DNA from: Vulcanisaeta moutnovskia 768-28
GTDB lineage: Archaea; Thermoproteota; Thermoprotei; Thermoproteales; Thermocladiaceae
Assembly: GCF_000190315.1 (NCBI RefSeq)
Contig: NC_015151.1
Location: forward strand, 1,240,001 to 1,304,000
Length of the DNA stretch: 64,000 nucleotides
Direction of reading: 5' to 3'
The notes under the pieces were generated by a model. It was not told the DNA's origin, ran no database searches, and was given only the letters and a program-made list of their open reading frames with translations. Of this stretch, positions 18,686 through 24,681 are shown piece after piece; within the stretch, counting starts at the first letter, position 1, and every line of letters starts with the position of its first letter. The position numbers and the translations under genes were made by a program.

Positions 18686-20578
18686 ATGGCAGTTAATCAA
18701 AAGTTCTATTCCTTAGATAGGATTAGGCGAATTGCTATTGAGGCCGCTGAAAATCCAGCTAAGTTCTGGGCTGATAAGGTTGATTATTTAACGTGGTTTG
18801 AGAGACCGAAGTCAATACTTGAAGGTAAGGCGCCCGATGTTTATTGGTTTAGGGGTGGTTACCTAAATATTAGTTATAATGCAGTTGATAGGCATATACC
18901 AGCTAGGGCTAATAGGGTTGCTTTTTACTATGAGAATGAGAGAGGCGATAGTAAGGTCATTAGTTATTGGGATCTTTATAGGGAGGTAAATAGGGCTGCC
19001 TATTTACTTAAGGAGCTTGGCGTTAGGAGGGGGGATACAGTATCCATGATGATGCCGAGCATACCGGAGGCTGTTTACTTCGGTCTTGCCGTACATAGAC
19101 TTGGCGCTACCCTCGTGATTCACTATGCAGGTTTAAGCGAGGAGACACTTGCATATAGGCTTCAGGATTGTGGGTCAAAGATTTTCGTGGTTGCATCAAA
19201 GGGATTTAGGGCTGGTGAGGAGGTCAGGATGAAGGACTTAATTGATAGGACACTCGAAAAGTATCAGACACCTGTGGAGAAGGTACTCGTAGTCTCCAGA
19301 GGTTTTTCTGACTTTAATATTAAGCAGGGTAGGGATATTGTGTATGAGGATGCGGCTCCCAAGGGCAAGGTCTATGTTGAACCCACACCGGTGGAGGCGA
19401 ATGAACCAGCCACGATATACTATACATCAGGTACGACGGGAAGACCTAAGGGCTTATGGCAAAGTAATGGTGGTTACCCAATAGGCCTTAATTGGACATT
19501 TAGGGCGTTATTTAATCCGCAAGATGTAGATGTTTGGTGGACAATAAGCGAACTAGGTTGGCCTGTGTGGCCTATGGCTAATTTATATACCGCACCCGTG
19601 ATGGGATTAACGAGCCTTTTATTCGAGGGATTTATTGGCTATAAGAGGGATTTATTCGCTAGGATTATTGAGAAGTACCACGTCTCACTGATTTGGAGTA
19701 GTACAACTACACTTTACACAATTAGGAGTATTGGTGAGGAGGCCCTTAAGGGAGATTTATCGAGCCTAAGGATAATACTCAACACTGGCGAGACTCTCAA
19801 TCCAAGTGTTGCTGAGTGGTATATTCAGCAATTACCGAGCACAATAATTGCAGATGCCTATTGGATGACTGAGCACTTAATACCAATAGCCGCAACACCC
19901 TATGGCCTTGGTGAAATACCGTTTAAACCTGGTTCGACGGGTATTCAATTCCCAGGTAGTAAGTGGCTTGTGGTTGATGATGATGGTAACCCACTACCAC
20001 CTGGACAGAGGGGTTACATAGTCATTGCTATTCCAAACCCAGCAATGGCTAAGATGTGGAATGACCCCAATTATGAGAGATTAATAAAGACGTATTGGTC
20101 CAGGTTCTCTGGTTACTTCTATACAGGTGATTATGGATTTTACGACACCGACGGCTATCTATACGTACTTGGCAGGGCAGATGACATACTAAGCATTGCT
20201 GGTGAAAGACTTGGTACAATGGACATAGAGGGCATCCTCGCAAGGCACAGGGCAGTTGCCGAAGCGGCAGTTGTAGGTGTTCCAGCACCTGGCGGTGGTG
20301 AAAAGGTCCTGGCTTTTGTCGTACTAAAGTCTGGGGAGATACCATCTGAGACCTTGGTTAATGATATTAAGGAGTTCGCAAGGGCGTCAGGGACTAGGGT
20401 GGATGATGTAGTAATAGTAAGGAGATTACCAAAGACTAAGTCCGGGAAGATAATGAGGAGGTTATTGAGGGCATTGGTGAGGAATGAACCGTATGGCGAT
20501 GTATCAACACTGGATGATATTAGGACATTAGATGATATAAAGGCTGCCTTAATGGAGCGTGGTTACATAAAGCCGTGA
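18686..20578 (+). CDS. AMP-forming acetyl-CoA/short-chain acyl-CoA synthetase
   Basis: This is an ANL-family ligase (630 aa) that activates a short carboxylic acid to its CoA thioester via an acyl-adenylate. The core motifs are intact: YTSGTTGRPKG (246-256), ADAYWMTE, YTGDYGF and the C-terminal LPKTKSGKIMRRLL with the adenylating Lys. The N-terminal ACS cap (KFWADKVDYLTWFERP) marks the acetyl/propionyl-CoA synthetase group. In Thermoproteales such enzymes may also take 3-hydroxypropionate or 4-hydroxybutyrate; the sequence does not settle this. The stop overlaps the next gene. The transcript is probably leaderless. Confidence 0.93.
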   Translation: MAVNQKFYSLDRIRRIAIEAAENPAKFWADKVDYLTWFERPKSILEGKAPDVYWFRGGYLNISYNAVDRHIPARANRVAFYYENERGDSKVISYWDLYREVNRAAYLLKELGVRRGDTVSMMMPSIPEAVYFGLAVHRLGATLVIHYAGLSEETLAYRLQDCGSKIFVVASKGFRAGEEVRMKDLIDRTLEKYQTPVEKVLVVSRGFSDFNIKQGRDIVYEDAAPKGKVYVEPTPVEANEPATIYYTSGTTGRPKGLWQSNGGYPIGLNWTFRALFNPQDVDVWWTISELGWPVWPMANLYTAPVMGLTSLLFEGFIGYKRDLFARIIEKYHVSLIWSSTTTLYTIRSIGEEALKGDLSSLRIILNTGETLNPSVAEWYIQQLPSTIIADAYWMTEHLIPIAATPYGLGEIPFKPGSTGIQFPGSKWLVVDDDGNPLPPGQRGYIVIAIPNPAMAKMWNDPNYERLIKTYWSRFSGYFYTGDYGFYDTDGYLYVLGRADDILSIAGERLGTMDIEGILARHRAVAEAAVVGVPAPGGGEKVLAFVVLKSGEIPSETLVNDIKEFARASGTRVDDVVIVRRLPKTKSGKIMRRLLRALVRNEPYGDVSTLDDIRTLDDIKAALMERGYIKP

Positions 20579-22077
20579 TGCCTATGTCGACAGAATTGAA
20601 TTATCCTCATCAAAACCCTATTGATGCATTACTTGGGTATTTAAGGGATCGTCCTAACGATGTATTATTAATTGACGAACATGGCTTATCACTAACGTAC
20701 GAGGAACTCTATAATAAATCAGTTAAGTTAGCGAACTCTCTCAATAGGCTTGGTGTTAATTATGGGGATAGGGTTGTAATAATGATGAGTAATAGTGTGG
20801 AGACCGTTATCTCATTATTTGCAGCATGGATGCTTGGCGCTGCAACGGTTATGATAGACCCATTAACAATATCTGAGGATCTCGATTATCAATTAAGCGA
20901 TTCTGTACCTAAGGTTGTTATTACCGATAAGTCAGTCATCGAGAGAGAATCAACCGTCTTATCGAAGTATAAAGTCATCAGTGTTGACACGGCTAAGGAA
21001 AGCATACTAAGTTTTCAGGATTTACTAAGCGCTGGTTCATTGACTGGTTTCAAACCCGTAGAGGTTAAGGAGGATGATGTTGGCTTAATTTACTACTATG
21101 CTGGTATTGCTGGAAGGACCATGCAGGTTTGGCATACATACTTCAGCTTGTATTCGGGTCCATACGCATTCGGTGAAGCAATAGGGCTTGGTCGAAGTGA
21201 CTCTGTCCTAGTGGTGGCTCAATTATCCCATATACTTGGACTTACGGAGTTCATGTCAGCCTTCGTTAGAGGCGCTAGGATTGTTATTGCCAGGCGTTTT
21301 GATGCTAAGGATACGCCTGAGTTAATACATAGGTATGGCGTAACCGTATTCGCAGGAGTACCCCTAATGTTTGATCAAATCCTTAATAATAAGGATCTGA
21401 GTCCAGGCATGTTATCATCATTAAGACTAACACTTTCAGCGGCTGCACCATTATCGCCATCAACACAACTAGGTTTTTACCAGAAGTTCGGTGTACCGCT
21501 TATTCAATTCTATGGCTTGACTGAGGCATACGTACTTACCGTACAACCAACCAAGTATAAGGACGTGACTAATACCGTTGGTTCCGCAATACCTGGTGCT
21601 GAATTGAAAATAGTAGATCCTAACGATCCATCCAGGGAATTAGGCATGGGTGAGGTTGGTGAATTAGCTGCCAAGGCGCCCTGGATTATGAAGGGCTACT
21701 CAGATCCGGAGGACACTAGGAAAGCTTTCTACAATGGTTGGTTACTAACTGGTGATTTAATGATGATGGATGACAAGGGATTACTGTATTTCAGAGGCGT
21801 TAAGAAAAGAATGATTAAGTACAAGGGCTACCCAATATTTCCACGAGACTTGGAAATAATGCTAATGAAACACCCAGCTGTTAAGGAGGTTTATGTAACT
21901 GGTGAGCAGGCTGATGACCCAAGCATTGGCCAGTTACCTGTTGCATATGTGGTTCTTCATGATGAGTATAGGGATAAGATATCTGATAAGGACCTTATTG
22001 ACTTTGTAAATTCTAGGGTTGCATTTTACAAGAAGCTTAGGAAGGTGTACTTCGTAGATAAACTACCCACTAAGTAG
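20575..22077 (+). CDS. Acyl-CoA synthetase-like protein with degenerate catalytic motifs
   Basis: The ANL fold is clear (IMMSNSVETVISLFAAWMLGA, LIQFYGLTEAYVLT, NGWLLTGDL, KYKGYPIFPRDLE). However the adenylate P-loop, normally YTSGTTGxPKG, reads YYAGIAGRTMQ (about 174-184). The protein also ends at DKLPTK, just where the catalytic GKxxRR segment should follow. It is therefore probably not a normal ligase. It overlaps the intact synthetase by 4 nt and so is coupled to it. A regulatory or heteromeric role is an inference. GTG 20575, ATG 20578 and ATG 20584 are all possible starts. Confidence 0.85.
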   Translation: MMPMSTELNYPHQNPIDALLGYLRDRPNDVLLIDEHGLSLTYEELYNKSVKLANSLNRLGVNYGDRVVIMMSNSVETVISLFAAWMLGAATVMIDPLTISEDLDYQLSDSVPKVVITDKSVIERESTVLSKYKVISVDTAKESILSFQDLLSAGSLTGFKPVEVKEDDVGLIYYYAGIAGRTMQVWHTYFSLYSGPYAFGEAIGLGRSDSVLVVAQLSHILGLTEFMSAFVRGARIVIARRFDAKDTPELIHRYGVTVFAGVPLMFDQILNNKDLSPGMLSSLRLTLSAAAPLSPSTQLGFYQKFGVPLIQFYGLTEAYVLTVQPTKYKDVTNTVGSAIPGAELKIVDPNDPSRELGMGEVGELAAKAPWIMKGYSDPEDTRKAFYNGWLLTGDLMMMDDKGLLYFRGVKKRMIKYKGYPIFPRDLEIMLMKHPAVKEVYVTGEQADDPSIGQLPVAYVVLHDEYRDKISDKDLIDFVNSRVAFYKKLRKVYFVDKLPTK

Positions 22078-22107: not shown

Positions 22108-24093
22108 TCATTGACTTTTCCAAATAATCTCATCAATATCATTGGGAACCCTATAGCCAGGTAATCTCTCAAGGGCCTCCTTAAACTCATTACTTCTCAA
22201 CATGCTTAGGAATGCCTTAACACTATCCTTCTCAAGCCTATCAATTGATATTGCAAAGTCATAACTCTCCCAACCAAGTGGTATGAAGTCAAGGCTGTAC
22301 ATTGCGGCCGCGGCCCTAATACCAACACCAACATCAGCCTTACCCTGAGCCACCGCCGCTGCAACTGCCGTGTGTGTCTTAACCTCGTAATAATAACCAT
22401 TGATCCTCTTCACTAAATCCTCAAATTTAATGCCCATTTTTGAGGCTATCTCCTTCAATTTCATATCAAGTAGAAACCTAGTGCCTGCACCCTTATTCCT
22501 ATTAACAATCCTCACATCATCCCTAAGTAAATCCTCAACACTCCTAATATTCTTGGGATTACCCCTGGGTATTATGAGTCCCTGCTCCCTGGAGTAACCC
22601 CTAATTAGCACAGCATTATTAACACTATATTTAATCATGTACGGTACATTATACTGACCAGTCTCCTCATCAACCAGGTGTAAGCCGGCTACATCAGCCT
22701 CACCACGCTTAACAGCGTATAACCCACCCATAGAACCAACATTGATTACCCTAGCCCTAATGAAACCTGGAAGCATCGGTATTAATACGTCTAGTCCAAG
22801 GTCATGGCTACCGATTATATATAGGTTAGCCGGCATGTACTGGTGTGTGAATAGTGCCACCTCAACCTCATCACCACTATCCAGGTACTCCACAGTCTCG
22901 GGGATCGCTATATAACCATCGGCAAAGGCCAGCGTACTTATGGCACCCGACTCAGCAGGTAATGGGTAGGCCACAATACCATGACCCGTATCAACAAGGC
23001 TAACTGGGTATAGTGCCCTCCTACCCTTTGCACCATCAGCCCTAATCGCCAGCCTTGCCCTAACCCTTACCTCATCAATCCCCATACAAAGCATTTTAGC
23101 CAGTATTGGCTTAACAATTATATTAAATATCATTAGAGCGGAACTTGGGTAACCAGGCAAACCAACAATTAATTTGTTATTCCGCGATACCGCAATAACC
23201 GTTGGCTTACCAGGCTTAACCTTAAGTCCATGAACTACTATGCCTGGAGGACCTAATTCATCAAGTACCTTGTATGTTAAGTCAGCAAGCCCAGCGGATG
23301 TACCACCTGAAAGAAGCACTAAGTCACTAGTGCCTAAGGCATTGCTTAACATACTCCTCATCTCATTAATGTTGTCCCTAACGATGCCCATGATTATTGG
23401 CTCAGCACCCATTGACCTAACGGCATGCGCTATTGTGTATGTGTTTATGTCGTATATCTTACCACGACCTAACTCCTTACCTGGACTAACTAATTCATTA
23501 CCCGTGGAAATTATTGAAACCCTAGGCCTCTTAATCACCTCAACATTATCAATACCCACAGCCGCAAGTAAGCCAACCTCCCTCTCCCTAATAACCGTGC
23601 ACCTCCTAAGTATTAACTCACCCATCATCACGTCAGAGCCTGCTGACATTACGTTCTCACCAGGCGTTACTGAGCGGTATATCATTAACTCATTGCCATC
23701 CCGCCTAGTGTATTCAACCATAACCACAGCATTGGCGCCAGGCGGCATGGGCGCTCCTGTGGCTATTTCAACGGCCTCACCGTGATTAATCTGCGGCAAC
23801 TCCTCAACCCCAGTCTCCACATTACCAATAACCCTTAACCTAACTGGATTTAACTCATCAGCCCCAAACGTATCCTCAGCCCTGACAGCGAAACCATCCA
23901 TTGTTGCCCTATCAAATGGTGGCACATCAATCCGTGAATATACATCCCTCGCCAAAACTCTCCCATAACTCTCCTCAATCCTAATAATTTCCGTTCCCAA
24001 CGGCTCAACCTTAACTGCACTAAATACCTTGCTTAATGCCTCCTCAGGTGTGAGTAATTCATGAAATATTACCCTCTTACCTGTCTCAGACAT
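22108..24093 (-). CDS. moeA: Molybdopterin molybdenumtransferase MoeA fused to a PBP-like domain
   Basis: Residues 1-400 or so are MoeA, which inserts molybdenum (or tungsten) into adenylated molybdopterin. [38 protein letters not shown] and [14 protein letters not shown] are all visible. The last 240 residues are a periplasmic-binding-protein-like domain ([37 protein letters not shown]), known in archaeal MoeA fusions and thought to bind an oxyanion such as molybdate. The domain is cytoplasmic here because there is no signal peptide. A molybdoenzyme large subunit is encoded at 43.3-45.4 kb. Confidence 0.94.
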
Positions 24094-24187: not shown

Positions 24188-24207
24188 AGCAGTACGATTC
24201 ATTGCCT

Positions 24208-24681
24208 ATGATGGGTAGATTAACTAGAACGTGGTTGATACTAATGCTAACCTTTTCATTAATAGGCTTGTTCGCATCATTCATCGTCATATACACCTAC
24301 TACTACCTACGTAAATTACCACCACTCTGTACATCATTTAAATCCCCATTTCCTGGAATAACCATTGATTGTGAGAGAGTACTCTCAAGTAAGTATTCAG
24401 ACATAAATGGTGTACCACTTGATTTACTCGCTGCGATTTGGTTTATCATAAACATAATCCTCGTCGTAACCTATGACCTAGGACAAGGCAGCATAGCCAC
24501 ATTATCCATTAATGCACTATTTTATTGGAGATTTCTTGGAATTGCCATAGTTCCATACCTAATATTCGTAGAGACGTACCTACTCCATGCCCTGTGCATT
24601 TATTGCACGGTAATGCACGTAATGATAATAATAGACTTCACAATAATAACCACTTACTTCATTAAAGCGAGGAATCATTAG
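24208..24681 (+). CDS. Vitamin K epoxide reductase (VKOR) family protein
   Basis: This four-helix membrane protein makes disulfides by passing electrons from extracytoplasmic thiols to a quinone. The loop pair of Cys (PPLCTSF and IDCERV, followed by LSSKYS as in the family) and the active-site CIYC in the last helix region are present. Archaeal VKOR supports disulfide-rich proteins in thermophiles. No DsbA or thioredoxin-like partner is adjacent. The 3' end overlaps the convergent HAD gene by 20 bp. Confidence 0.88.
   Translation: MMGRLTRTWLILMLTFSLIGLFASFIVIYTYYYLRKLPPLCTSFKSPFPGITIDCERVLSSKYSDINGVPLDLLAAIWFIINIILVVTYDLGQGSIATLSINALFYWRFLGIAIVPYLIFVETYLLHALCIYCTVMHVMIIIDFTIITTYFIKARNH

Follow-up and report, generated by a model that had tools for sequence, protein, structure and literature searches.

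A putatively non-adenylating family of ANL-fold proteins in Thermoproteota, encoded behind an intact synthetase in Vulcanisaeta

In its ordinary form, the P-loop of ANL-superfamily synthetases reads Y-T-S/G-G-T-T-G-x-P-K-G, and in 4CL-type enzymes the KYKGY stretch of the A8 region lines the CoA tunnel or contacts CoA. Five residues are invariant among 374 class I adenylate-forming enzymes, namely Glu328, Gly384, Asp418, Arg433 and Lys524 in the T. thermophilus enzyme (PMC6122825). The window, i.e. the whole 64-kb stretch of DNA that was analysed, originates from a Vulcanisaeta genome of 2,298,983 bases and encodes a protein that is a member of the ANL superfamily by descent and fold (FAM; Table 1). 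This protein and its relatives, here called the family, keep the invariant Glu, Gly and Asp, and have lost the invariant Arg and Lys.

Table 1. Coordinates of features in the window (position 1 is its first nucleotide); fractions refer to family members.
Feature	Position	Strand	Remarks
Intact acetyl/propionyl-CoA-synthetase-like enzyme	18686..20578	+	630 aa; all motifs; overlaps start of family gene
Predicted non-adenylating ANL-fold protein (FAM)	20575..22077	+	500 aa; Pfam matches; AlphaFold2 mean pLDDT 93
Replaced P-loop YYAGIAGRTMQV	21094..21129	+	Residues 174–185; column counts and DNA pattern
A4-type His219	21229..21231	+	Kept in 39/39
A5 motif YGLTE	21511..21525	+	Residues 313–317; Glu kept in 39/39
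A7 motif TGD	21748..21756	+	Residues 392–394; Asp kept in 39/39
A8 region FRGVKKRMIKYKGYPIFPRDL	21790..21852	+	Residues 406–426; Arg to Val409, hinge Asp to Arg412, KYKGY kept
Stop codon before A10 Gly-Lys motif	22075..22077	+	No A10-like motif in any frame of the following 400 nt
MoeA fused to PBP-like (solute-binding) domain	22108..24093	-	In most Vulcanisaeta genomes, convergent with family gene
VKOR-family protein (vitamin K epoxide reductase type)	24202..24681	+

The window protein matched the Pfam domains AMP-binding (1.3e-71) and AMP-binding_C (1.7e-13), the latter over profile positions 2–70 of 76 and thus without the last six, and its chain ends in VYFVDKLPTK. An earlier note on this DNA had described a retained ANL fold, a P-loop replaced by YYAGIAGRTMQ and a chain stopping at DKLPTK. 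Both sequence features were present as described, and the fold was supported by the two Pfam matches and by a high-confidence AlphaFold2 model built on a 37-member alignment, which superimposed on 4-coumarate-CoA ligase with AMP and CoA (5bsr) with a TM score of 0.90, an rmsd of 2.5 and 30% identity. The model adopted the thioester-forming conformation. This was rejected as evidence of a protein restricted to thioester formation, since an ordinary sister synthetase was predicted in the same conformation. The P-loop pLDDT was about 87–94 in the family model versus 64 in the sister, a difference given no weight because the alignment depths differed (37 versus 15 rows). The TGA of the upstream synthetase overlaps a GTG start by 4 nt, and an ATG at 20578 or 20584 is an equally possible start. 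The exact overlap length is therefore uncertain and the coupling is independent of the choice, so that the earlier statement of a 4-nt overlap with an intact synthetase stands for the coupling, and for the length with the GTG start only.

Alignment columns were counted in 39 family members and, as controls, in 37 ordinary synthetases encoded by these archaea. In the P-loop, Thr was replaced by Tyr and Pro by Thr in all 39 members, and Ser/Gly by Ala in 37. The two later Thr residues had become Ile/Val and Ala/Val/Ile, and the Lys had become Met, Glu, Leu or Tyr, again in every member. Both glycines were kept, with a single Ser at the second. None of the 39 members thus had an adenylating-type P-loop (Thr/Ser/Thr-Thr, Pro, Lys), whereas Thr175, Thr178, Thr179 and Lys183 were present in 37/37 ordinary controls. 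The superfamily-invariant A8 Arg was replaced by Val, Ile or Leu in 39/39 members (controls: Arg in 36/37, Lys in 1/37), the hinge Asp/Glu was uniformly Arg, and the chain of all members stopped short of the position of the A10 Lys. The GE-motif Gly was invariant, as were the A5 Glu (Mg) and the A7 Asp (ribose). In the KYKGY stretch, Lys415, Lys417 and Tyr419 were invariant and position 418 was Gly in 30 and Ala in nine members. New residues were fixed in the family at Tyr175, Thr182, Arg412 and Asn479, and nearly so at Arg181. Compared with the controls, the losses fall at ATP- and adenylate-handling positions, and the A4 His and the KYKGY stretch are retained. From these residues we infer that adenylation has been lost. 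The absence of both the P-loop and two out of five superfamily-invariant residues agrees with a pseudo-enzyme. It is quite improbable that the family still comprises ATP-dependent acyl-CoA or acyl-AMP synthetases with an unusual P-loop and another lysine, as the retained A5 and A7 motifs might indicate: the P-loop hydroxyls, Pro and Lys, the A8 Arg and the A10 Lys are all gone together in every member, and single changes at the P-loop residues Thr322 or Pro329 abolished between 90% and all of the activity (Table 2, cited paper).

A profile search was extended from the order to the class and then to 398 genomes of the phylum. Matches at approximately 390 bits or more occurred in eight families (f1, f2, f25, f27, f29, f32, f40 and f43), and the same search did not recover the family in the majority of the remaining Thermoproteales. 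The next-best matches examined, at 346 bits and below, were ordinary synthetases with intact motifs, and no intermediates with part of the losses were seen across this drop in score. Carriers presumably include S. acidocaldarius, S. tokodaii, Aeropyrum pernix, Ignicoccus hospitalis, Pyrolobus fumarii and Pyrobaculum aerophilum. In total, 52 intact members (the 39 above and 13 further ones) from the eight Thermoproteota families all had the altered P-loop and lacked the A10 end. Orthologues within Vulcanisaeta shared 68–92% identity. A degenerate nucleotide pattern describing the altered loop matched in 50 of the 398 genomes (reversed control: 0), in 49 of them within the family gene; the match in G353 was rejected as a family member, being located in an unrelated protein. 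One member (L078:1337-2965, + strand, genome G236) carried an unrelated C-terminal extension where other members stop, with two CxxC pairs that looked zinc-ribbon-like by eye and no Pfam match. Two Sulfolobus-type genomes encoded a divergent sub-branch, MHYAGIIGRTYEVYHTH (L093:5970-7463 and L096:5988-7472), with genes for FadB, a thiolase, an LplA-like protein and FadD as neighbours. A literature search found no description of the family, and nothing on pseudoenzyme acyl-CoA synthetases in archaea or the ANL superfamily or on a Vulcanisaeta acyl-CoA synthetase; subscription papers were mostly outside its scope, and an earlier description is possible. A paper on fatty acids in S. acidocaldarius treats the gene cluster Saci_1103-1126 (genomic 903–932 kb) and not the family gene.

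A phylogeny of 83 proteins, from which the columns of the P-loop, the A8 region and the C-terminus had been removed, united all family members in a single clade (100 ultrafast bootstrap, 99 SH-aLRT). The window protein fell in the FadD/4CL-like branch and not in that of its upstream neighbour, with which it shared 28% identity; the two are not close paralogues. The family is thus a Thermoproteota clade of ANL-fold proteins with a single origin, and most likely an ancient one. The Nei–Gojobori dN/dS of the six Vulcanisaeta family genes was about 0.09 (0.07–0.12, mostly 0.08–0.10, where dS was estimable), indicating strong purifying selection, and that of the neighbouring synthetase gene was 0.03–0.06. 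Since dS approached saturation in more distant pairs, the weight rests on the close pairs, with dS values of 0.46 and 0.75 and dN/dS values of 0.086 and 0.085, respectively. The proposal that the gene is maintained and not decayed was strongly supported by this ratio and by the 52 intact members with the same replacements. In all 39 members tested, the 400 nt after the stop contained no A10-like motif in any frame, no relative regained the last motif, and no full-length active version was present inside the clade. A sequencing error or missing 3' end was therefore rejected, the intact relatives all ending before that motif, and neither relaxed selection nor scattered disruptions, as expected of a pseudogene, were apparent. 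Loss of the gene does occur, as evident from a broken copy in the near-complete genome G036 of another Thermoproteaceae genus (L108:6413-7180), in which the frame is lost before A7 and the remainder contains stops; frameshifts were also found in the draft genomes G002, G003, G004 and G008. In G008, a seventh Vulcanisaeta genome with the same gene order, the reading frames of both the synthetase and the family gene were broken, as were neighbouring genes, which points to poor sequence there. Given the common end, the common replacements and the low dN/dS, the chance that the window gene is a decaying pseudogene or an artefact of its 3' end is virtually negligible.

The synthetase upstream of the family gene contains the motifs TSGTTGRPKG and TKSGKIMRR and an ACAS_N domain. 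Six Vulcanisaeta genomes with intact reading frames had the family gene directly behind this ACS-like gene, overlapping it in five and separated from its stop by 12 nt in the sixth. The pair was also recovered in more distant relatives, where the same ACS orthologue precedes the family gene in G030 (Thermoproteaceae) and in G314 and G345 (Caldisphaera-type). The family tree follows the lineages, which argues against the pair having spread as a single cassette. The ACS orthologue was detected in 23 of the 398 genomes, all of which contained the family, a co-occurrence that is partly due to shared ancestry as both occupy the same clades. The overlap in Vulcanisaeta and the gene order repeated in three lineages could also indicate a split enzyme, in which the neighbour would perform the ATP chemistry and the family subunit would provide the acyl or CoA site. 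This is unlikely, as the neighbour is complete with every motif of a self-sufficient synthetase and most family members lack the ACS-like neighbour.

Of the 39 family loci, 23 had an intact ANL gene no more than five genes away, in several lineages. The expected chance of such linkage was approximately 6%, an estimate based on 13 other ANL matches in the 2.3-Mb Vulcanisaeta genome and an assumed number of about 2,300 genes. In several other families, the family gene was located beside a Liv-type ABC transporter operon and another intact synthetase, in varied orientations. Further neighbours were thiolases with a ChsH2-type zinc-ribbon/OB protein, a family III CoA-transferase, hotdog thioesterases, a PaaX-type regulator, FadB and FadD. 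In most Sulfolobales, the main family copy preceded a thioredoxin gene and had no synthetase nearby, which is evidence against a role as a partner. At eight Sulfolobales loci (L086, L091, L092, L094, L095, L097, L099 and L100), a thioredoxin with an N-terminal extension was encoded after the family gene on the same strand. At L094 at least, the two genes overlap by a few bases. In genome G031, an ANL N-terminal domain was fused in-frame to a LivF-type ABC ATPase (L046:5119-7161, - strand; 681 aa, AMP-binding 19–438, ABC_tran 449–588). The fusion, which adjoins an intact family gene, looks like the result of a deletion of the synthetase C-domain and the intervening permease genes.

A possible though less probable explanation is that the family proteins are active enzymes with ATP-independent chemistry on the ANL scaffold, performing the thioester half-reaction in either direction, or acyl transfer or hydrolysis from acyl-CoA. 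It is residues required for the use of ATP that have been lost; His219, Glu317, Asp394 and the greater part of KYKGY are invariant, and with the newly fixed residues the site looks rebuilt and not dead; the thiolases, CoA-transferases, thioesterases and FadB among the neighbours are likewise consistent with such chemistry. In known enzymes, however, the AMP ribose is held by the A8 Arg, the loss of which makes the handling of acyl-AMP doubtful, and no catalytic group besides the old ones is evident. The related proposal, that the fold was rebuilt (YAGIAGRTMQ, hinge Arg) into an ATP-independent acyl-CoA enzyme of an ancient, undescribed family ranging from Ignicoccus-type autotrophs to Sulfolobus, is likewise possible, though not probable.

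We tentatively prefer the reading that the family consists of non-adenylating pseudo-synthetases of single origin, held under purifying selection, which would bind CoA or acyl-CoA and act as partners of intact synthetases. The CoA- or acyl-CoA-binding partner is favoured because it best fits the retained residues and the gene neighbourhood, with ATP-independent chemistry as its main rival. That the window protein is a regulatory subunit or a CoA/acyl-binding partner, as the earlier note had suggested, is plausible on the same grounds. Acyl-adenylate formation may have been lost early in an ancient Thermoproteota clade, after which selection for another role would have fixed the disarmed family. 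CoA or acyl-CoA, perhaps together with AMP, could still be bound, and ATP use would be impossible. The protein would then partner intact synthetases without a catalytic function of its own; its presumed partner in Vulcanisaeta is the ACS-like enzyme encoded just upstream. It may work as part of a mixed oligomer, by sensing acyl-CoA as the product, or by handing acyl-CoA over to the next enzyme. Several kinds of synthetase occur in linkage with the family, and one and the same partner would therefore not fit every member.

All scanned family proteins exceeded the Pfam AMP-binding cut-off by >100 bits, so automatic annotation would label them acyl-CoA synthetases. Judging from their sequences, pathway reconstructions for crenarchaea may therefore credit organisms with a carboxylate-activating enzyme that is probably incapable of activation. 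With an apparent, fixed loss of adenylation of single origin and members in genetically manipulable organisms, the family could allow a direct test of the function left to an ANL fold that no longer uses ATP, be it regulation, acyl-CoA carriage or new catalysis.

Among known systems, the acetyl/propionyl-CoA synthetases (AMP-forming) belong to the same superfamily and are represented by the adjacent gene, but this neighbour has the ACAS_N domain and every motif and belongs to a different branch. The FadD/4-coumarate-CoA ligase branch of class I ANL enzymes is closer; the best profile matches of the family were archaeal FadD-1 (3g7s), MenE and 4CL. The fold, the Pfam domains, the A4 His, A5, A7 and part of A8 are common to this branch and the family, whereas the P-loop, A8 Arg and hinge Asp are replaced and the A10 Lys and last helix are missing in all family members. 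Ubiquitin E1 enzymes contain an inactive adenylation half. Although their fold and substrate are unrelated to those of the family and no shared ancestry is claimed, they offer an analogy in which an adenylating fold has likewise been kept as a non-adenylating partner.
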